A stretch of DNA of 32,678 nt from Candidatus Staskawiczbacteria bacterium RIFOXYD1_FULL_32_13. Its GTDB lineage: Bacteria > Patescibacteriota > Minisyncoccia > Minisyncoccales > Staskawiczbacteraceae. The stretch spans positions 1-32,678 of the forward strand of contig MHPU01000029.1 in the NCBI GenBank assembly GCA_001820485.1. Reading direction: 5' to 3'. Every line of letters starts with the position of its first letter. Positions within the stretch are counted from its first letter, which is position 1. The notes under the pieces were generated by a model. The model was not told the origin of the DNA and did not search any database. It was given only the letters and a program-made list of their open reading frames with translations. Shown here piece by piece: positions 1,668 through 29,173 of this stretch. A program made the position numbers and the translations under genes.

Positions 1668-1698
1668 TAAAAATATTTTATTCGTGAATAATTAGTAG

Positions 1699-1734
1699 TG
1701 TATATTAATTATGCTATAGCATTGTTAATATACA
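1699..1734 (+). repeat. 36-bp near-perfect palindrome, family A, left copy
   Basis: TGTATATTAA-TT-ATGCTATAGCAT-TG-TTAATATACA; 10-bp perfect arms and 12-bp palindromic core; overlaps the predicted -35 region of the next gene. Confidence 0.93.
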
Positions 1735-1777
1735 TTAGTTATGTTTTATGATATAATAAAAAAATTAGATTTAAATT

Positions 1778-2356
1778 ATGTTAAGAAAAAATAATTTAGT
1801 AAATTTTAGAAGGGCACGTTCGGAAATTGTTGTAGATATTTTGAGTATATTAATTTTGACCGGCGTGATTATGATTGCAACTACCTCCCCTTATTTTATC
1901 GTTAATATTTTAAAAGGTTTTAAGCAACTTAAAAAGTATCCAGATAAAAAAGTTCGTAGTGCTTTTTACAATTTAAAAAAGCAAGGATTAATTGATTTTG
2001 AAAATAAGAAGGGGCAGATTTTTTTCTCTCTTACTGATGTTGGTAAGAAGAAAGCTAGTTGGATGAAAATAGATAATTTGGAGATTGAAAAACCAAAAAA
2101 ATGGGATAAAAAGTGGCGAATGGTAATGTTTGATATTGCTCAGGCGAAAAGACAAGAAAGGGAAGCTTTGCGTGGAAAATTAAAACAACTTGGATTTTTT
2201 CTTTTTCAAAAAAGTGTTTGGGTGATTCCATATAAATGCGACAAAGAAATTGAGATGCTTAAAAAGTTTTTTGGTCTTAAAGATTCTGAAATTAGATTAA
2301 TAACAATTGACAATATTGGCGAAGATGGGGAATTAAGAAAATTTTTTAAATTATAG
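1778..2356 (+). CDS. PaaX-like / Cas2-like domain protein (copy 1), N-terminal hydrophobic helix + wHTH + Cas2-like domain
   Basis: 192 aa; ...KKWDKKWRMVMFDIAQAKRQEREALRGKLKQLGFFLFQKSVWVIPY... resembles the Cas2-like domain of PaaX-family proteins; paralogue of 13693..14271. Confidence 0.8.
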   Translation: MLRKNNLVNFRRARSEIVVDILSILILTGVIMIATTSPYFIVNILKGFKQLKKYPDKKVRSAFYNLKKQGLIDFENKKGQIFFSLTDVGKKKASWMKIDNLEIEKPKKWDKKWRMVMFDIAQAKRQEREALRGKLKQLGFFLFQKSVWVIPYKCDKEIEMLKKFFGLKDSEIRLITIDNIGEDGELRKFFKL

Positions 2357-2392
2357 ATTTCAAATCGTATATATTTCTGTATTTAGTATTGG

Positions 2393-2428
2393 TGTATATT
2401 AATTGTGCTATGGCTGAGATAATATACA
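2393..2428 (+). repeat. 36-bp palindrome, family A, right copy
   Basis: TGTATATTAA-TT-GTGCTATGGCTG-AG-ATAATATACA, same length and orientation as the left copy. Confidence 0.92.
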
Positions 2429-2481
2429 TAAATAATTTAAAGAATTACAAATAATTATGTGGAAATATATGAGAAATGAAA

Positions 2482-3105: not shown

Positions 3106-5625
3106 ATGAAAAAATATATTCCAAATAAAATAGAAAAAAAGTGGCAAAAGATCTGGGAGCAGAAAAAGATTTTTGAGGCAAAAAATCCTTCGACTCGCTC
3201 TGCTCGCTCAGGACAAAGTAAAAAACAGAAGTTTTTTACTTTGGTTGAGTTTCCTTATCCATCTGGAGATGGTTTACACGTAGGGCATTGCAGAAGTTAT
3301 ACAGGTTTAGATATTATTTCTCGTAAGAAAAGAATGGAGGGTAAAAATGTTTTGTTTCCAATTGGCTGGGATGCTTTTGGTTTGCCTACAGAAAATTATG
3401 CAATTAAAAAAGGCATTCATCCAAGTGTTGCTACAAAAAGAAACACCGACACATTTCGCAAGCAATTAAAAAGTTTGGGATTTTCTTTTGATTGGTCGCG
3501 TGAAGTAAATACCACAGACCCTGCTTACTATAAATGGACTCAATGGATTTTTTTGCAATTATTTAAAAATAATTTAGCTTACAAAGATAAAATTGCAATT
3601 AATTGGTGTTCTTCTTGCAAAATTGGCCTTGCTAATGAAGAAGTAGTTGCAGGAAATTGTGAAAGATGTGGCACAAAAGTTGAAAAAAAAGAAAAGGATC
3701 AATGGATGATTAAAATTACCAAGTATGCAGATAGATTGATTAAAGATTTGGATAATGTAAATTATTTGGAAAAAATAAAAATTCAGCAAAAAGAGTGGAT
3801 AGGGAAATCAGAAGGAATCAATATTGATTATAAAATTGAGGGACAAGCCTTTGCTGAAGCTTCGGCGGACAAGCAAAATAAAATCATTTCTGTTTTTACA
3901 ACAAGACCTGATACAAACTTTGGAGCTACTTTTTTGGTAGCAGGTCCAGATAGTAATTTTGTAAAAGAGAATTTAGAAACATTTCCAGAAAAAGAAAAAG
4001 TAAAGGAATATATAAAAGAAGCTTTGGCAAAAGCAGATATAGAAAGAACTGCCGAGGGTCGCAAAAAAACTGGAGTAGCTACTGGTTGGTATGCAATAAA
4101 TAATTTAAATAATAGAAAAATGCCAATTTATGTTGGTGATTTTGTGCTTGGGCAATTTGGTACTGGTTGCGTTGTTGGAGTTCCGGGACATGACTTAAGA
4201 GATTTTGAATTTGCAAAAGCAATGAACTTGGAAGTTATTAGGGTTGTTATTGGAAAAGATGGTGATACTTCAGAAATAACAGATGCAAAACAAGTACAAG
4301 AAGAAGTTGGCATAATGATAAATAGCGGATTTTTAGATGGCAAAGATATTCATGAAGCTACAAAATTGATAATGGATTATATAGAAGAAAAGGGCTGGGG
4401 TAAAAAAATAATAAATTATAAATTAAGAGATTGGGTATTTTCGCGCCAGCATTATTGGGGCGAGCCAATCCCTCTTATATATTGCAGTGATTGCGGGTGG
4501 GTGGCGGTACCAGAAAAAGACTTGCCAGTAGAACTTCCAAAAGTAAAAAAATATGAACCAACCGATAACGGAGAATCGCCACTTGCGGTAATTGAAAAAT
4601 GGGTAAATACAAAATGTCCAAAATGTGGCGGGCCTGCAAAAAGGGAAACTGATACAATGCCAAATTGGGCTGGTTCAAATTGGTATTTTTTGGCATATAC
4701 TTTTGCCAAAAATGGAAAATATAATTGGAATAATAAAGATATAGAAAGTTTTATGCCAGTTGATTGGTATAATGGTGGAATGGAGCACACCACTTTGCAT
4801 TTGCTTTATTCCAGATTTATTTTTAAATTCTTGTGGGATATTGGAGCAGTTCCAAAATCAATTGGAAGTGAGCCATATATGAAACGCACTTCCCACGGAA
4901 TGGTTTTAGGGGAAGGGGGAATTAAAATGTCAAAATCAAAAGGAAATGTAATTAATCCAGATACAGTGGTTAAAGATTTTGGAGCTGATACTTTGCGTAT
5001 TTACGAAATGTTTATGGGGCCATTTGATCAAGCAATTCCTTGGGATACAAAAGGAGTAATTGGATCACGTAGATTTTTGGAAAAAATATATAATTTAATT
5101 TCAAATTTCAAATTTCAAATTTCAAATTCAAAGGGTGTAATAAAATCTAAAATTGAAAATAGCGAACTAGATGCAGTTTTACACAAGACTATCAAAAAAG
5201 TGAGCGAGGATATTGAGTCAATGAGATTTAATACTGCAGTTTCTGCACTTATGATTTTGGTTAATGCGTTTTATGAATATCAAGAAAGTTTAACAAAAGA
5301 TAATGTAAAAAATCTTTTATTAATTCTTTCACCTTTTGCTCCACATTTAGCAGAAGAACTTTGGAGTGAAATGAAATTTAAGGGTTTGGCTTGCCAGCAA
5401 CCTTGGCCAAAATATGATGAAAAATTAATTACATCAGAAAAAGTTTTGTTGATAGTACAAATAAATGGTAAAGTAAGAGATAAAATAGAAGCTAGTTCTG
5501 GACTTTTGCAAACTGATGCTGAAAAACTTGTTAAAGAGTCAGAAAAATTAAAAGTGCACTTGGAAGGTAAACAGATTCGCAAAATAATTTATATAAAAGA
5601 TAAATTAATTAATATTGTAATATAA
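3106..5625 (+). CDS. leuS: leucyl-tRNA synthetase
   Basis: FPYPSGDGLHVGHCRSYTGLDI, GWDAFGLPTENYA, KMSKSKGNVINPD motifs. Confidence 0.97.
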   Translation: MKKYIPNKIEKKWQKIWEQKKIFEAKNPSTRSARSGQSKKQKFFTLVEFPYPSGDGLHVGHCRSYTGLDIISRKKRMEGKNVLFPIGWDAFGLPTENYAIKKGIHPSVATKRNTDTFRKQLKSLGFSFDWSREVNTTDPAYYKWTQWIFLQLFKNNLAYKDKIAINWCSSCKIGLANEEVVAGNCERCGTKVEKKEKDQWMIKITKYADRLIKDLDNVNYLEKIKIQQKEWIGKSEGINIDYKIEGQAFAEASADKQNKIISVFTTRPDTNFGATFLVAGPDSNFVKENLETFPEKEKVKEYIKEALAKADIERTAEGRKKTGVATGWYAINNLNNRKMPIYVGDFVLGQFGTGCVVGVPGHDLRDFEFAKAMNLEVIRVVIGKDGDTSEITDAKQVQEEVGIMINSGFLDGKDIHEATKLIMDYIEEKGWGKKIINYKLRDWVFSRQHYWGEPIPLIYCSDCGWVAVPEKDLPVELPKVKKYEPTDNGESPLAVIEKWVNTKCPKCGGPAKRETDTMPNWAGSNWYFLAYTFAKNGKYNWNNKDIESFMPVDWYNGGMEHTTLHLLYSRFIFKFLWDIGAVPKSIGSEPYMKRTSHGMVLGEGGIKMSKSKGNVINPDTVVKDFGADTLRIYEMFMGPFDQAIPWDTKGVIGSRRFLEKIYNLISNFKFQISNSKGVIKSKIENSELDAVLHKTIKKVSEDIESMRFNTAVSALMILVNAFYEYQESLTKDNVKNLLLILSPFAPHLAEELWSEMKFKGLACQQPWPKYDEKLITSEKVLLIVQINGKVRDKIEASSGLLQTDAEKLVKESEKLKVHLEGKQIRKIIYIKDKLINIVI
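3186..3213 (+). repeat. in-frame dispersed repeat (TCCTTCGACTCGCTC..GCTCAGGA family) in leuS
   Basis: Inverted-repeat-like element encoding PSTRSARSGQ; related to the reverse complement of 10067-10087. Confidence 0.8.
3841..3874 (+). repeat. in-frame dispersed repeat GGACAAGCCTTTGCTGAAGCTTCGGCGGACAAGC in leuS
   Basis: GGACAAGC flanks on both sides; encodes GQAFAEASADKQ, absent from the usual LeuRS consensus. Confidence 0.7.
5101..5128 (+). repeat. 4x tandem heptamer TCAAATT in leuS
   Basis: Direct reading; encodes SNFKFQISNS. Confidence 0.95.
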
Positions 5626-5631
5626 TAAACT

Positions 5632-5703
5632 GTCATTCCCGCAAAAGCGGGAATCCAGAGTACGAGTGTTTAACCCTGGATTCCCAATCAAGTTGGGAAT
5701 GAC
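5632..5703. repeat. 72-bp intergenic inverted-repeat element, copy 1
   Basis: GTCATTCCCGCAAAAGCGGGAATCCAG...CTGGATTCCCAATCAAGTTGGGAATGAC; second copy at 10486..10557. Confidence 0.92.
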
Positions 5704-10478: not shown

Positions 10479-10485
10479 CATTAGT

Positions 10486-10557
10486 GTTATTCCCGCAAAA
10501 GCGGGAATCCAGAGTGCGTGCACTTAATTCTGGATTCCCAATCAAGTTGGGAATGAC
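10486..10557. repeat. 72-bp intergenic inverted-repeat element, copy 2
   Basis: Same length and sequence architecture as 5632..5703; fills the iorB-nucleotidyltransferase gap. Confidence 0.92.
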
Positions 10558-10559
10558 AA

Positions 10560-11324
10560 ATGACTATGATAAAAAAAGTTGTTGTTTCAGCAGCGGGGCA
10601 GGGCACAAGAATGCTTGAGCTTTCAAAAGAAAAATCAAAGCATTTAATTTGTATAAATGATAAGCCATTTTTGGCGTATTTGATGGATAATATTTTACTT
10701 GCAGGATATACAGAAATTCTTTTGGTAGTGGGTTTTCACTCAGAACTAATGGGTGAGTTTAAAAATAATTATTTAAATTCTGTGGAAAAAATAGGAATAG
10801 ATAGAAATAAAATTAAAATAGAAATAATAAATCAGCATGAAATTTTGGGACCAAAAGATGTAGCTTATGGAACTGCCTGCCCCATAAAATGTGCAAAAGA
10901 TTTTATTGGCAATGAAAACTTTTTATCTTTGGCAGGTGACAATTTTTATTCCGTGGAAGATTTAAAGCTAATGAATATCGATGATAAATACAATTATGTT
11001 GCAGGTTGCCAAAACGAACATCCTGAAAGATTTGGAGTCCTTGTAAAAGACGGGGACGACTTTTTGGAAAAAATTATTGAAAAGCCAAAAGAATTTATAG
11101 GAAACTTAATTAATATAAGTTTTTATAAGTTTACTCCAGAAATTTTTGATGTGGTAAATAAAATTGAAAAATCTGTTAGAGGAGAGTATGAAATTACTGA
11201 TGCAGTTTCTCTTTCGGCTCGAGAAAAAAAAGTAAAAATTAAAAAAATTAATGACTTTTGGATGGACTTTGGTAGACCAGAAGATATTGAAAAAATGAAA
11301 GAAATTCTTAAAAAATGCAAATAA
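10560..11324 (+). CDS. sugar nucleotidyltransferase (NTP-transferase family)
   Basis: KKVVVSAAGQGTRMLELSKEKSKHLICINDKPFLAYLMDNI. Confidence 0.85.
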   Translation: MTMIKKVVVSAAGQGTRMLELSKEKSKHLICINDKPFLAYLMDNILLAGYTEILLVVGFHSELMGEFKNNYLNSVEKIGIDRNKIKIEIINQHEILGPKDVAYGTACPIKCAKDFIGNENFLSLAGDNFYSVEDLKLMNIDDKYNYVAGCQNEHPERFGVLVKDGDDFLEKIIEKPKEFIGNLINISFYKFTPEIFDVVNKIEKSVRGEYEITDAVSLSAREKKVKIKKINDFWMDFGRPEDIEKMKEILKKCK

Positions 11325-11932
11325 TAAAACCAACAAAACAAAATATTTCTATTGTAGTTGATGTGCTAAATAGATCTGGAATTGTAATTTGCCCAACTGA
11401 TACTGTTTATGGTTTTTTGGCATTAGCTGAAAATAAAAAAGCAGTAGATAAAATATTTAAAATAAAAAAAAGGTTAAAATCAAAAACTTTGCCTGTTTTT
11501 ATAAATAGTATAAAAATGGCAAAAGAACTGGCTGAAATTTTAGTAGAGCAAGAAAGGATTTTAAAAGATAAATGGCCTGGAAAATATACATTTATTTTGA
11601 AATTACGCGTGCCGTCATTGCGAGGAGCGAAAGCGACGAAGCAATCTCAGAGATTATCAAAACTTTGTATTGGTGGTGATGGGGTTGTGGCTTTGAGAAT
11701 TCCCAAGTATAAATTTCTAAATGATTTGCTAAAAATAATTGGCAAACCATTGGTTCAGACTTCAGTAAATATTTCTGGCAAGCCACCTATAAATAAAATT
11801 TCAGAAATTATTGAAGTTTTTGGTAAAAGTAAAAACATAGACATAATAATAGATGCCGGCATTCTGAAAAATCCCAAACAATCACGCATAATTGATTTGA
11901 CTGGCAAAAAAAAGAAAATAATAAGAAAATGA
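11315..11932 (+). CDS. tsaC: threonylcarbamoyl-AMP synthase (Sua5/YrdC/TsaC)
   Basis: GIVICPTDTVYGFLALAENKKAVDKIFKIKKR, PLVQTSVNISGKPP. Confidence 0.9.
   Translation: MQIIKPTKQNISIVVDVLNRSGIVICPTDTVYGFLALAENKKAVDKIFKIKKRLKSKTLPVFINSIKMAKELAEILVEQERILKDKWPGKYTFILKLRVPSLRGAKATKQSQRLSKLCIGGDGVVALRIPKYKFLNDLLKIIGKPLVQTSVNISGKPPINKISEIIEVFGKSKNIDIIIDAGILKNPKQSRIIDLTGKKKKIIRK
11613..11648 (+). repeat. in-frame dispersed repeat CGTCATTGCGAGGAGCGAAAGCGACGAAGCAATCTC in tsaC
   Basis: Recognisable CGTCATTGCGAGG...GAAGCAATCTC repeat; encodes PSLRGAKATKQSQ. Confidence 0.85.
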
Positions 11933-12337: not shown

Positions 12338-13579
12338 ATGGCAAAGGGTCATATTATTGCCGGATTAGATATCGGCACAAATACAATTAAACTTCTGGTA
12401 ATACAAAAAAGAAACAAAGAGTGGGAAGTTTTGTCATACCAAGAAATGCCATCTTTTGGTTTAAGAAAAGGTGCTGTTGTTGACGCAGGGGAAGTTTCTA
12501 AAAATATACAAACATTGTTATCTGAAACTGAAAAAAATTCTTCAAAAAAAATTACTTCTGTTTTTGTGAATATTGGTGGAAATCATATTTATATAACTCC
12601 ATCAGATGGAATTATTTCTGTATCAAGAGCTAATCAAATAATTTCGCAAGAAGATATTGATAGGGTTTTGCAAGCTACAAGAGCAATTAATATACCGCAA
12701 AATGAAGAAGTTTTAGATGTTTTTCCAAAAGAATTTATAATTGATGATCAAAAAGGTATAAAACAACCTTTGGGACTTCGAGGCATAAGACTAGAAGCGA
12801 AAGTTTTATTGTTATGTGTTTTTTCTCCATATTTTATTAATTTGACTCAAGCTGTTTTAAATTCCAAACTTCATATTGATGATATTGTGCCTTCGCCTTT
12901 GGCGGCTTCTGAAGCTGTTTTAACTCGAGAGCAAAAGGAACTGGGAGTAGCTTTAATTGATATTGGAGCCTCTACTACAAGTTTGGCTGTTTTTGAAGAA
13001 GGTAATTTATTGCATTTGGCTGTTTTCCCAATTGGATCAGCTAATATTACAAATGACATTGCTATTGGTTTAAAAACTGAAATATTTGTAGCTGAATCAA
13101 TTAAAAAACAATATGGATCTTGTATGTTAGTTAAACAAGATAAAGAAAAGAAAGATGAAAAAATTAATATTGAAAAAAAGAAAATAGAAATTATTGAAAA
13201 TTCATCAGTCGTAAGTTTTACTAGAAAAGATTTAGTAGATATTATTGAGCCAAGAGTTTCGGAAATTTTAGATTTAATTTTAAAAGAGTTAAAGAAAATT
13301 GGCAGGCAGGAATTGTTACCTTGTGGAATTGTTTTGACAGGTGGGGGAGCAAAAATTTCTAAAATAAAAGAATTAACAAAAGAGCAATTAAAGTTACCTG
13401 TGCAGATAGGAAAGATAAAAAACATTTTAGGGTTAGATGAAGATACAGCTTTAGCTACTGTAGCAGGTCTTGTTCTAAGTTCAGCAGTTATGGATGAGAC
13501 TGATAAAGAAGGTCTATCTGGGGTTTTGAAAGGATTTTGGTCTAAAATAAAAAAAATGCTTAAAGTTCTTGTCCCATAA
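12338..13579 (+). CDS. ftsA: cell division protein FtsA
   Basis: IIAGLDIGTNTIKLLV, GVALIDIGASTTSLAVFEEG, PCGIVLTGGGAKI actin-fold motifs. Confidence 0.93.
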   Translation: MAKGHIIAGLDIGTNTIKLLVIQKRNKEWEVLSYQEMPSFGLRKGAVVDAGEVSKNIQTLLSETEKNSSKKITSVFVNIGGNHIYITPSDGIISVSRANQIISQEDIDRVLQATRAINIPQNEEVLDVFPKEFIIDDQKGIKQPLGLRGIRLEAKVLLLCVFSPYFINLTQAVLNSKLHIDDIVPSPLAASEAVLTREQKELGVALIDIGASTTSLAVFEEGNLLHLAVFPIGSANITNDIAIGLKTEIFVAESIKKQYGSCMLVKQDKEKKDEKINIEKKKIEIIENSSVVSFTRKDLVDIIEPRVSEILDLILKELKKIGRQELLPCGIVLTGGGAKISKIKELTKEQLKLPVQIGKIKNILGLDEDTALATVAGLVLSSAVMDETDKEGLSGVLKGFWSKIKKMLKVLVP

Positions 13580-13608: not shown

Positions 13609-13680
13609 TTTATCTAATAGGAATATTTAAATTTATACGACAATAAATAGCGGTCGCTTCCTATTGTCGTATTAGATAAA
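13609..13680 (+). repeat. outer inverted arms around left family B palindrome
   Basis: TTTATCTAATA (13609-13619) and TATTAGATAAA (13670-13680) are perfect reverse complements bracketing 13635..13672. Confidence 0.8.
13635..13672 (+). repeat. 38-bp palindrome, family B, left copy
   Basis: ATACGACAATA-AATAGCGGTCGCTTCC-TATTGTCGTAT; perfect 11-bp arms. Confidence 0.93.
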
Positions 13681-13692
13681 TATAAGATAAAC

Positions 13693-14271
13693 ATGAAAAG
13701 AAAAAACAATCAGATTTTTAGAAAATTTTCTGGGATATCAGGACTTGTTTTGATTGTGTTATTACTGACTGGTGCTGTTGTTATTTCAGCCACTTCTCCA
13801 TACTTTTTAGTCAATCTTTTTAAGAGTAAGTTTTTTAGAAGTTTTAAAAAATATCCACCAAAGAAAGTTTATGATACTTTTTATAGACTCAGAGAAAGAG
13901 GTTTTATAGATTTTTATTATAAAGGTAGTCAAATTTATTTTACGCTTACTGAAAAAGGAAAGAAAAAAGCTGGCTGGCTTAAAGTTGATGATTTAAAAAT
14001 TAATAAACCAAAAAAGTGGGATGGAAAATGGAGGATATTGTCTTTTGATATTGTGGAATTAAAAAGAAGTTATAGAGAGGCTTTAAGAGGAAAATTAATT
14101 GGCATGGGTTTTAAATTGTTTCAAAAAAGTGCATGGATCATTCCCTATGAGTGTAATAAAGAAATAAAAATTCTTAAAGATTTTTTTGGATTAAACGACA
14201 GAGAAGTAAAGCTTATTACTGCTGTTGATATTGGGGAAGACAAAGATTTGCATGATCATTTTGATTTATAA
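13693..14271 (+). CDS. PaaX-like / Cas2-like domain protein (copy 2)
   Basis: 192 aa; shares REALRGKL, LFQKS.W.IPY.C.KEI..LK.FFGL.D.E..LIT..(D/N)IGED with copy 1. Confidence 0.8.
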   Translation: MKRKNNQIFRKFSGISGLVLIVLLLTGAVVISATSPYFLVNLFKSKFFRSFKKYPPKKVYDTFYRLRERGFIDFYYKGSQIYFTLTEKGKKKAGWLKVDDLKINKPKKWDGKWRILSFDIVELKRSYREALRGKLIGMGFKLFQKSAWIIPYECNKEIKILKDFFGLNDREVKLITAVDIGEDKDLHDHFDL

Positions 14272-14318
14272 AAATATTTAAAATTGCTCTTCTATTTTTG
14301 TTAGTAATAAATATATAG

Positions 14319-14355
14319 TACGACATAATTTAGCGGTCGCTTCCTATTGTCGTAT
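14319..14355 (+). repeat. palindrome, family B, right copy
   Basis: TACGACATAATTTAGCGGTCGCTTCCTATTGTCGTAT; 25 bp (TAGCGGTCGCTTCCTATTGTCGTAT) identical to the left copy in direct orientation. Confidence 0.93.
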
Positions 14356-14470: not shown

Positions 14471-14734
14471 CTATGAAGTTTGTGCATGCTGAGGAAATTT
14501 TTGTTCTTCAGCTCGCCAGTGAAACCAGCTACGCCCCGAACACCTTGGGCACTCGAATATGACTACATTTCTGTCGTCATACAGGATGTCGTAGCCCACT
14601 ACATAATTAAACACGCCCGGATTACAAAGGTCCCAGCCTTTCTCACTTCGATCTTCGCAGTAAGGACATCTCATGCCCTCGGCGTGCCGCATATCGTGGG
14701 TGTGCATCATTCCCCATTTTTGGAATTTTGCCAT
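14471..14734 (-). CDS. small zinc-ribbon-like protein (GC-richer islet gene)
   Basis: 87 aa with CPYC and CPRC motifs; SD AAAGGAG; upstream minus-strand TTGACA box. Confidence 0.75.
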   Translation of the reverse strand: MAKFQKWGMMHTHDMRHAEGMRCPYCEDRSEKGWDLCNPGVFNYVVGYDILYDDRNVVIFECPRCSGRSWFHWRAEEQKFPQHAQTS

Positions 14735-14869: not shown

Positions 14870-15790
14870 ATGCAACCTGTAATAAAAGTAATTGGAGTTG
14901 GTGGGTCTGGTTCAAATACAATTTCCAGAATGAAAAAATTTAGCATTAAAGGTGTAGAGCTTATTGCTATAAATACAGATGCTCAAGCTTTGCATTTTTG
15001 CCAAGCTGATAAAAAGATTTTAATTGGTAAAAATATTACCAAAGGTCTTGGTGCTGGTATGGATGCAACTTTAGGGCAAAAGGCAGGAGAGGAAAATAAA
15101 GTAGAAATTGCAGAAGTGTTAAAAGGCTCTGATATGATTTTTATAACTTGTGGTCTTGGTGGAGGAACAGGAAGTGGCGCATCATTTGTTGTTGCTGAAA
15201 TTGCAAAAAATCTTGGTATTTTAAATGTGGCTGTTATGACAACGCCTTTTTCTTTTGAAGGAGCTTTGAGAAAGAAAGTTGCAGACCTTGCTTTAGAAAA
15301 TTTAAAAACAAAAGTAGATTCTTCTTTGGTTATTTCCAATGACAAGCTTCTGAAAGTAATTGATGAAAAGACAACTGTAACTTCGGCATTTTCAATGTGT
15401 GATGAAATATTAATGCAAGCAGTTTCTAGTATTACTGATTTAGTTTTATCTCCCGGAATAATAAGTATTGATTTTGCTTCAGTAAAATCAATTATACAAA
15501 ATTCAGGGAAAGCAATTTTAGGCCAAGGTATCGCAAAAGGAGAAAATAGAGCAGTAGAATCTGCAGAAAAAGCAATAACCTCACCTTTACTGGATGGTTC
15601 AATAAATGGAGCAAAAGGAGTATTATTTTGTGCATTTGGAAATGATATAAGTTTAAATGAAATTCAACAGGCAGCTAAAGTAATTACCAAAACAGCAGAC
15701 TCAAGAGCCAAAATAATTTTTGGAGCAGTAAAAGATGATAAGCTTGCAAAAGGTGAAATGAAAATAACAGTTATTGCCACAGATTTTTAA
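14870..15790 (+). CDS. ftsZ: cell division protein FtsZ, lacking C-terminal linker and tail
   Basis: KVIGVGGSGSNTISRMKK, GLGGGTGSGASFVVAEIAK tubulin signature; ends at KITVIATDF. Confidence 0.9.
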   Translation: MQPVIKVIGVGGSGSNTISRMKKFSIKGVELIAINTDAQALHFCQADKKILIGKNITKGLGAGMDATLGQKAGEENKVEIAEVLKGSDMIFITCGLGGGTGSGASFVVAEIAKNLGILNVAVMTTPFSFEGALRKKVADLALENLKTKVDSSLVISNDKLLKVIDEKTTVTSAFSMCDEILMQAVSSITDLVLSPGIISIDFASVKSIIQNSGKAILGQGIAKGENRAVESAEKAITSPLLDGSINGAKGVLFCAFGNDISLNEIQQAAKVITKTADSRAKIIFGAVKDDKLAKGEMKITVIATDF

Positions 15791-29020: not shown

Positions 29021-29072
29021 AAAAACCTATATTAATATTTATGCGTACGCATATTTATTACCATAGGTTTTT
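29021..29072. repeat. 52-bp imperfect palindrome
   Basis: AAAAACCTAT..TATGCGTACGCATA..ATAGGTTTTT; halves match except at about 5 positions. Confidence 0.9.
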
Positions 29073-29086
29073 TTATTTTGATTGTG

Positions 29087-29122
29087 TGTATATTAACAAT
29101 GCTATGGCTGAATTAATATATA
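29087..29122 (+). repeat. orphan family A palindrome
   Basis: TGTATATTAA-CA-ATGCTATGGCTG-AA-TTAATATATA; same 10-2-12-2-10 layout as 1699 and 2393. Confidence 0.92.
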
Positions 29123-29173
29123 TATTTTTGTGTCGTTATTTATTATTGTGGTTGCAGGAAAGGAAATTTTGAG

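Follow-up and report, generated by a model that had tools for sequence, protein, structure and literature searches.

A palindrome-flanked PaaX/Cas2-like gene between ftsA and ftsZ: a candidate mobile repeat of Patescibacteria with its own helper gene

The interval between ftsA and ftsZ in Candidatus Staskawiczbacteria bacterium RIFOXYD1_FULL_32_13 holds a one-gene unit bounded by palindromes, which we read, with a probability of roughly 0.65, as a REP/RAYT-like mobile element of Patescibacteria whose PaaX/Cas2-like protein would be the cognate specificity factor and most likely the mobilising nuclease. The genome (G000; 1.03 Mb in 44 contigs) is represented here by contig C29, whose 32,678 nucleotides form the whole stretch analysed and are referred to as the window. 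Together, the gene-plus-palindrome units and the lone palindromes described below appear to make up a type of mobile repeat, not described before, that comes with its own helper gene. Genome comparison, on our reading, establishes the linkage of gene and palindrome, their coevolution, the dispersal of palindromes in gene-bearing genomes alone, in-frame copies with empty orthologs, and near-identical units at unrelated loci bounded by the palindromes.

The unit occupies positions 13635-14355 and consists of a 38-bp palindrome, a gene for 192 amino acids and a second 38-bp palindrome. Its upstream neighbor is ftsA (12338..13579, forward strand; Pfam FtsA E 8e-32) and its downstream neighbor is ftsZ (14870..15790, forward strand; Pfam Tubulin/FtsZ_C), so that Pfam bears out the flanking genes, and the positions at which they end and start, that had been named from the sequence alone. 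The left palindrome (13635..13672) belongs to subfamily A, with arms ATACGACAATA/TATTGTCGTAT and core AGCGGTCGCT, and is recovered by a covariance model (CM) at E 0.0027 with a DNA hairpin z of -4.6; the right palindrome (14318..14355) also matches the CM and has a hairpin z of -1.8. Both contain the 25-bp core TAGCGGTCGCTTCCTATTGTCGTAT, for which 0 matches are expected in shuffled sequence even with 3 mismatches, and the gene between them (13693..14271, forward strand; Pfam PF20803 E 7e-18) lies where the sequence-only reading had put a 192-aa gene between palindromes with an identical core. The right palindrome is chimeric, its left arm resembling the ATGACATAA variant and its right arm the TATTGTCGTAT variant, and its ortholog in the congener G001 has ATGACATAA on both arms. 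Chimeric palindromes such as this one and L280 on contig C40 of G000 combine arms from two subfamily variants, as if swapped at the common core. Nested outer arms that had been reported around the two palindromes (TTTATCTAATA/TATTAGATAAA and ATATATAGTA/TACTATATAA) are present in the window but have not kept their inverted arrangement in the G001 and G002 orthologs of the unit, and because they are not conserved there we give them no weight at this locus. A small cysteine-rich, zinc-ribbon-like open reading frame (14471..14734, reverse strand) shares the interval; G002 has a homologous-looking ORF and G001 a different one.

In 26 of the 30 family genomes that have ftsA within reach of ftsZ, the spacing of the two genes is 4-140 bp; one of the 26 is the congener G003 (8 bp, with no unit between). 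This makes the insertion a derived trait of a three-species clade, G000/G001/G002. These three of the four congeners carry the unit in an interval of about 1.2-1.3 kb (1290 bp in the window), which upholds the earlier view of a discrete unit put into a normally adjacent gene pair. The interval also holds the ORF at 14471-14734, and therefore the gain was larger than the ~720-bp unit; the comparison across relatives that had been proposed as a check does reveal presence and absence, but it yields no clean empty site for the unit, since other DNA was gained too. No target-site duplication or precise empty site for the whole unit was found among these genomes, which are one per species and at least about 20% diverged at ftsA-ftsZ. 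Within the clade, the unit gene has been passed on vertically since the insertion, and purifying selection acts on it about as on ftsZ (dN/dS about 0.07-0.11 versus about 0.08-0.10). The picture of a vertical resident without empty sites, named beforehand as the outcome that would speak against insertion, is thus confined to the three species, with empty sites just outside them. Elsewhere in the family, the 758-bp ftsA-ftsZ interval of G024 (L197) contains a tRNA-Ile (gat) and two lone palindromes of two subfamilies but no unit gene. Most family genomes also encode a second, divergent FtsZ (in G000, contig C4, 28656-29552), about 35% identical to the short 306-aa FtsZ of the window.

The 192-aa protein is predicted to be a minimal PaaX, made up of a winged helix and a Cas2-like ferredoxin domain. 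In the AlphaFold2 model (pLDDT 86.6), the winged helix (residues about 14-85) is joined by a linker helix (87-99) to a Cas2-like domain (about 107-182) of beta-alpha-beta-beta-alpha-beta order, and the best solved match by both profile and fold (Foldseek against the PDB) is E. coli W PaaX, 8a39 (E 1e-7). PF20803 is matched by 69/69 homologs, 33 of which also show a weak Cas2 match. The label "Cas2-like" that the protein had first been given is therefore apt for one domain but too narrow for the whole protein, which is closest to PaaX. PF09827, the Cas2 profile, has no match to the window protein and gives its paralog at 1778-2356 21.0 bits against a cut-off of 23.8, while the NCBIfam cas2 model is narrowly passed by the paralog (26.7 versus 24.5) and not by the window protein. 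The C-terminal PaaX domain is absent, and TIGR02277, the full-length PaaX equivalog, scores 35.7 bits against a cut-off of 264.55. Columns invariant among the homologs are G89, K107, K108, W109, D110, K112, W113 and D119, the last placed at the end of beta-1, the position of the metal-binding Asp in Cas2 proteins. A HUH motif was sought among the conserved columns of the homologs and none was found; the fold is that of PaaX. The hydrophobic start of the protein had raised the possibility of an N-terminal transmembrane helix, which we rejected as the AlphaFold2 model makes this segment helix 1 of the winged helix.

Palindromes accompany this gene far beyond the window. In a set of 154 distinct genes, almost all of them patescibacterial, 84% have an upstream flank similar to the downstream one (local score of at least 18), versus 4% of 306 control ORFs drawn from the same loci, and strong palindromes (score of at least 14) stand on both sides of 34% of the genes versus 0.7% of control ORFs. 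A Sporosarcina PaaX-like gene from the same scan (L152) has no flanking palindromes, and one palindrome-flanked unit lies outside Patescibacteria by its label (L145, Micavibrio sp. MAG DYDB01000001.1), through misbinning or horizontal transfer. The palindrome center reads RC-NNNN-GY, with C at -3 in 109/111, G at +3 in 111/111 and a purine/pyrimidine pair at +-4. Variation in the 17 pairs of the arms is nearly unconstrained apart from compensation between the two sides: 458 two-sided changes are seen versus 166 in shuffles, and 89% of cells are paired versus 32-43% when the arms are slid; the sequences were picked for palindromy, which biases the paired fraction upward, and the more informative result is the variety of compensated pair types. 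Palindrome similarity tracks protein similarity (Mantel r 0.35, 0/2000 permutations), a coevolution that would follow if each protein were specific for its own palindrome. The two palindromes of a unit are oriented variously (54 direct, 25 inverted, 27 ties), which is uninformative because they are near-symmetric. At the dnaE-rnhB site (L057 and L168, compared with L011), related units occur in two genera with compensated palindrome changes; in G000 no unit occupies that position, yet lone palindromes are found across rnhB from it.

A second unit in the window lies between tatD and leuS and comprises a left palindrome of subfamily B (1698..1735; core TGCTATAGCA; CM match), a gene (1778..2356, forward strand; Pfam PF20803 E 7e-21) and a right palindrome (2392..2429). 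The two window genes are 57% identical and have palindrome pairs of different families, as the sequence-only reading had it. This unit is missing from G002 and from G003, where tatD and leuS are adjacent. The gene is present in 10 copies in G000 and in 6, 5 and 1 copies in the remaining three genomes of the genus; 22/22 adjoin at least one palindrome, with clear pairs in most. Copy number ranges from 0 to 12 per genome within the family, and 89 of 287 genomes of the phylum, about a third of the sampled Patescibacteria, encode the gene. A search of viral contigs returned no relatives.

Gene-less palindromes are dispersed in the same genomes. When the CM was run on 36 family genomes with both strands counted, it gave up to 52 matches per genome, and the number of palindromes followed the number of genes (Spearman 0.87, p 1e-11), a correlation to which gene-flanking copies add and beyond which many genomes still hold clearly more sites than flanks. 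The ten genomes that lack the gene have 0, 0, 0, 0, 1, 1, 4, 0, 0 and 0 matches; the exceptions are G005 and G028, with genes but no CM match, and G022, with 4 matches and no gene. Lone sites in G000 are roughly as many as gene-flanking ones. Of 42 lone palindromes, 24 most resemble a unit of the genome in which they lie, versus 2.8 expected. One in the window (29028..29065; core TGCGTACGCA; CM match) is closest to the flanks of another G000 unit, and a second, weak and subfamily B-like, follows at 29086..29123 (CM E 2.9). These two thus stand side by side, from two subfamilies, between pilin-like and LexA-like genes.

Several lone palindromes sit in-frame within conserved genes. The uvrC gene of G012 contains one that is 38/38 identical to that of a resident unit, and G000 uvrC has an independent in-frame palindrome of another subfamily in the same linker. 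These two insertions (L249, L279), from two subfamilies and two genera, occupy the linker between the UVR motif and the RNase H domain. Further in-frame copies are found in a miaB-like gene of G000, in mnmA of G004, and in holB and argS of G012. G012, G014 and G015 all have the holB insert of about 12-13 codons, G023 has what looks like a decayed version of it, and G011 and G017 lack it; several relatives have mnmA without the palindrome, and others have unrelated in-frame repeats at the same loop. Such copies are accounted for by mobile palindromes and not by operators or gene-regulatory dyads.

Whole units have apparently moved as well. Near-identical units occur at unrelated loci of different genomes (L173/L186 at 87% and L181/L182 at 85% protein identity), identities that compare with about 63-77% to the window FtsZ across the genera of the family. 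In both pairs, the DNA similarity continues through the right palindrome and ends at its outer edge, and on the left side the palindromes match while the sequence beyond does not. Other unit pairs share flanks and several orthologs are syntenic, so the units seem to combine long vertical residence with occasional movement. This mobility, of units and of palindromes, is supported by sequence comparison and not by observed transposition. As to target sites, the symmetry of 10/42 lone palindromes reaches at least 4 bp past +-22 into copy-specific flank; 0.7 would be expected, and none of 5000 shuffles gave more than 5. Their outer arms include some that resemble terminators or other hairpin repeats. 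The extended symmetry would reflect either a preference for inverted repeats as targets or copying of the flank during insertion. The suggestion of hairpin-forming target sites, first made for the ftsA-ftsZ unit, thus stands in its general form and is not supported for the outer arms at that locus.

If the palindromes move by means of this protein, the minimal mobile sequence would be the ~38-44-bp palindrome with its RC-NNNN-GY center. The winged helix, as a dimer, would recognise the arms of the cognate palindrome, and the Cas2-like domain, with invariant D119 after beta-1, would make its cut in the extruded hairpin or close to it. What is released, either the palindrome or the whole palindrome-gene-palindrome unit, would then be joined to a new location, with inverted repeats preferred. 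Palindromes without a gene would be moved in trans and would persist between genes or, where they are in-frame, in the loops and linkers of proteins. We infer cutting and joining by this protein because it is the sole gene of the unit, has a conserved Asp and is a gene on which the palindrome load depends; the form acted on would be DNA rather than RNA. The further proposal of a new transposase class, in which a PaaX/Cas2-fold nuclease moves 38-bp near-perfect palindromes into hairpin-forming sites and in-frame into essential proteins, shaping intergenic DNA and proteins across Patescibacteria, has in our estimate an even chance of being right.

Some of the evidence counts against a mobile element. 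Purifying selection and frequent vertical inheritance are compatible with a host function too, a transcription repressor is the nearest match among solved structures, and the nuclease role is a prediction. A PaaX-like autorepressor, with the palindromes as operators and the dispersed copies as its regulon, would account for the domain architecture and closest structure, for left palindromes that lie about 17-110 bp upstream of the start codon, and for perfect dyads that suit a dimeric winged-helix protein. We consider it unlikely, since a matched second palindrome lies just past the stop codon and sometimes overlaps it, several lone copies are within coding sequences, and just 2/42 lone copies fall between divergent genes, with 5 between convergent ones; nor is perfect symmetry of up to 38-58 bp, extending into copy-specific flank, operator-like, and near-identical units at unrelated loci also weigh against a regulon. 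Some Cas2 proteins are RNases, and the predicted RNA hairpins of the palindromes are stable, so the palindromes might instead be transcript hairpins for processing or termination on which the Cas2-like domain acts as an RNase. A G-T wobble excess over A-C mismatches, taken as a sign of a single-stranded or RNA form, favored this in raw counts (185 versus 131) and was rejected once related palindromes were counted once (31 versus 23 clusters, p 0.34). Most bases of the loop are self-complementary, which suits a site in double-stranded DNA, and RNA processing leaves dispersal and in-frame insertion unexplained; this RNA-level account seems very improbable to us.

It is a minor possibility that the palindromes are moved by another enzyme, such as a host HUH transposase, and that the PaaX/Cas2-like protein travels with them as a repressor or protector, binding to these same sequences. 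Its catalysis is predicted, PaaX relatives are repressors, and HUH RAYTs are the presumed movers of REP-like repeats in other bacteria (PMC2817692); against this, the unit holds this one gene only, the palindrome load follows gene copy number and is near zero without the gene, and palindrome sequence coevolves with protein subfamily. A plain accessory gene, passed on vertically and flanked by chance by AT-rich inverted repeats, would agree with the purifying selection and with the synteny of several orthologs, but it can hardly be right when the flank controls and covariation exclude chance palindromes and when the patchy distribution and empty sites are unlike a core resident.

The mobile-element reading has its closest parallel in RAYT systems, where a gene is flanked by palindromes, gene-less copies are dispersed, mutations are complementary, and gene and palindrome coevolve (PMC2817692). 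The Patescibacteria units resemble them in the small gene between two palindromes, in gene-less copies dispersed in the same genome, in palindromy kept by complementary mutations and in coevolution of gene and palindrome. They differ from REP-RAYT systems (RAYT/TnpA_REP, REPtron, REPIN) in that the protein is PaaX/Cas2-like and not a Y1 HUH transposase, the palindromes are longer and more perfect, there are many paralogs per genome, and the sites number up to about 25 per genome where REPs often exceed 100. No unpaired GTAG/GGAG or CGTC tag was found at the palindrome foot, and the flanks of lone copies differ; because there is neither an HUH enzyme nor a GTAG/CGTC tag, we do not file the unit as a RAYT. 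GTAG/CGTC-tagged REPs are 20-40-bp palindromes that sometimes lie in repair or replication genes, and the CGTC REPs have no known transposase (PMC3733652). The palindromes described here share the short length and the occasional placement inside repair and replication genes, but they have no tag, do have a dedicated, non-HUH gene and belong to Patescibacteria. Rickettsia palindromic elements (RPE) are palindromic repeats that lie in-frame in conserved genes of small genomes (PMC10969869). In-frame insertion in conserved genes with orthologs lacking it (HolB, MnmA, UvrC, ArgRS, MiaB-like) is the likeness; the Rickettsia families are about 150 bp versus 38-58 bp in Patescibacteria (palindrome about 38-44 bp), the hosts are others, and a candidate cognate gene exists here.

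E. coli W PaaX (8a39) shares the winged helix and the central Cas2-like PaaX_M domain and is the best structural and profile match. It differs in length (about 300 aa versus 192) and in having the C-terminal PaaX domain; residues aligned to FD119I are not conserved in it, and the Patescibacteria gene is palindrome-flanked, with ftsA and ftsZ as neighbors and no phenylacetate genes nearby. With CRISPR adaptation the protein shares a Cas2-like ferredoxin domain with a conserved Asp after beta-1, but the one-gene unit contains neither Cas1 nor a CRISPR array, and it is unlike a casposon in that the Cas1 integrase is absent and the only gene between the palindromes is PaaX-like. Like an autonomous insertion sequence, it occurs at unrelated loci with homology ending at the unit ends (L173/L186, L181/L182).

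In the literature we found no description of Cas2 or PaaX proteins with mobile palindromes or in Patescibacteria, and novelty is provisional, as subscription papers and preprints lay mostly outside the search. To our knowledge, REP-like palindromes with a dedicated gene have been described only with HUH enzymes, and we know of no identified mover for Rickettsia-type in-frame palindromic elements. If our interpretation is correct, the association of a Cas2-fold protein with mobile palindromes would bring transposition together with PaaX regulators and with folds like those of CRISPR adaptation, and tiny reduced genomes would have a home-grown mobile element that edits essential proteins. Such a system would hinge on a single small gene, open to direct test.

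These genomes contain other dispersed repeats as well. Families in the window lie at 5631-5703, 10485-10558, 5092-5131 (within leuS) and 11612-11650 (within the ORF 11315-11932; SLRGAKATKQSQ), with many matches in G001. This suggests that several in-frame repeat families coexist in these genomes, some of the other repeats being in-frame within coding genes. The MnmA loop TGHYAR...KDQ(T/S)YF (L287-L307) is a hot spot, with different in-frame repeat insertions in different genomes.
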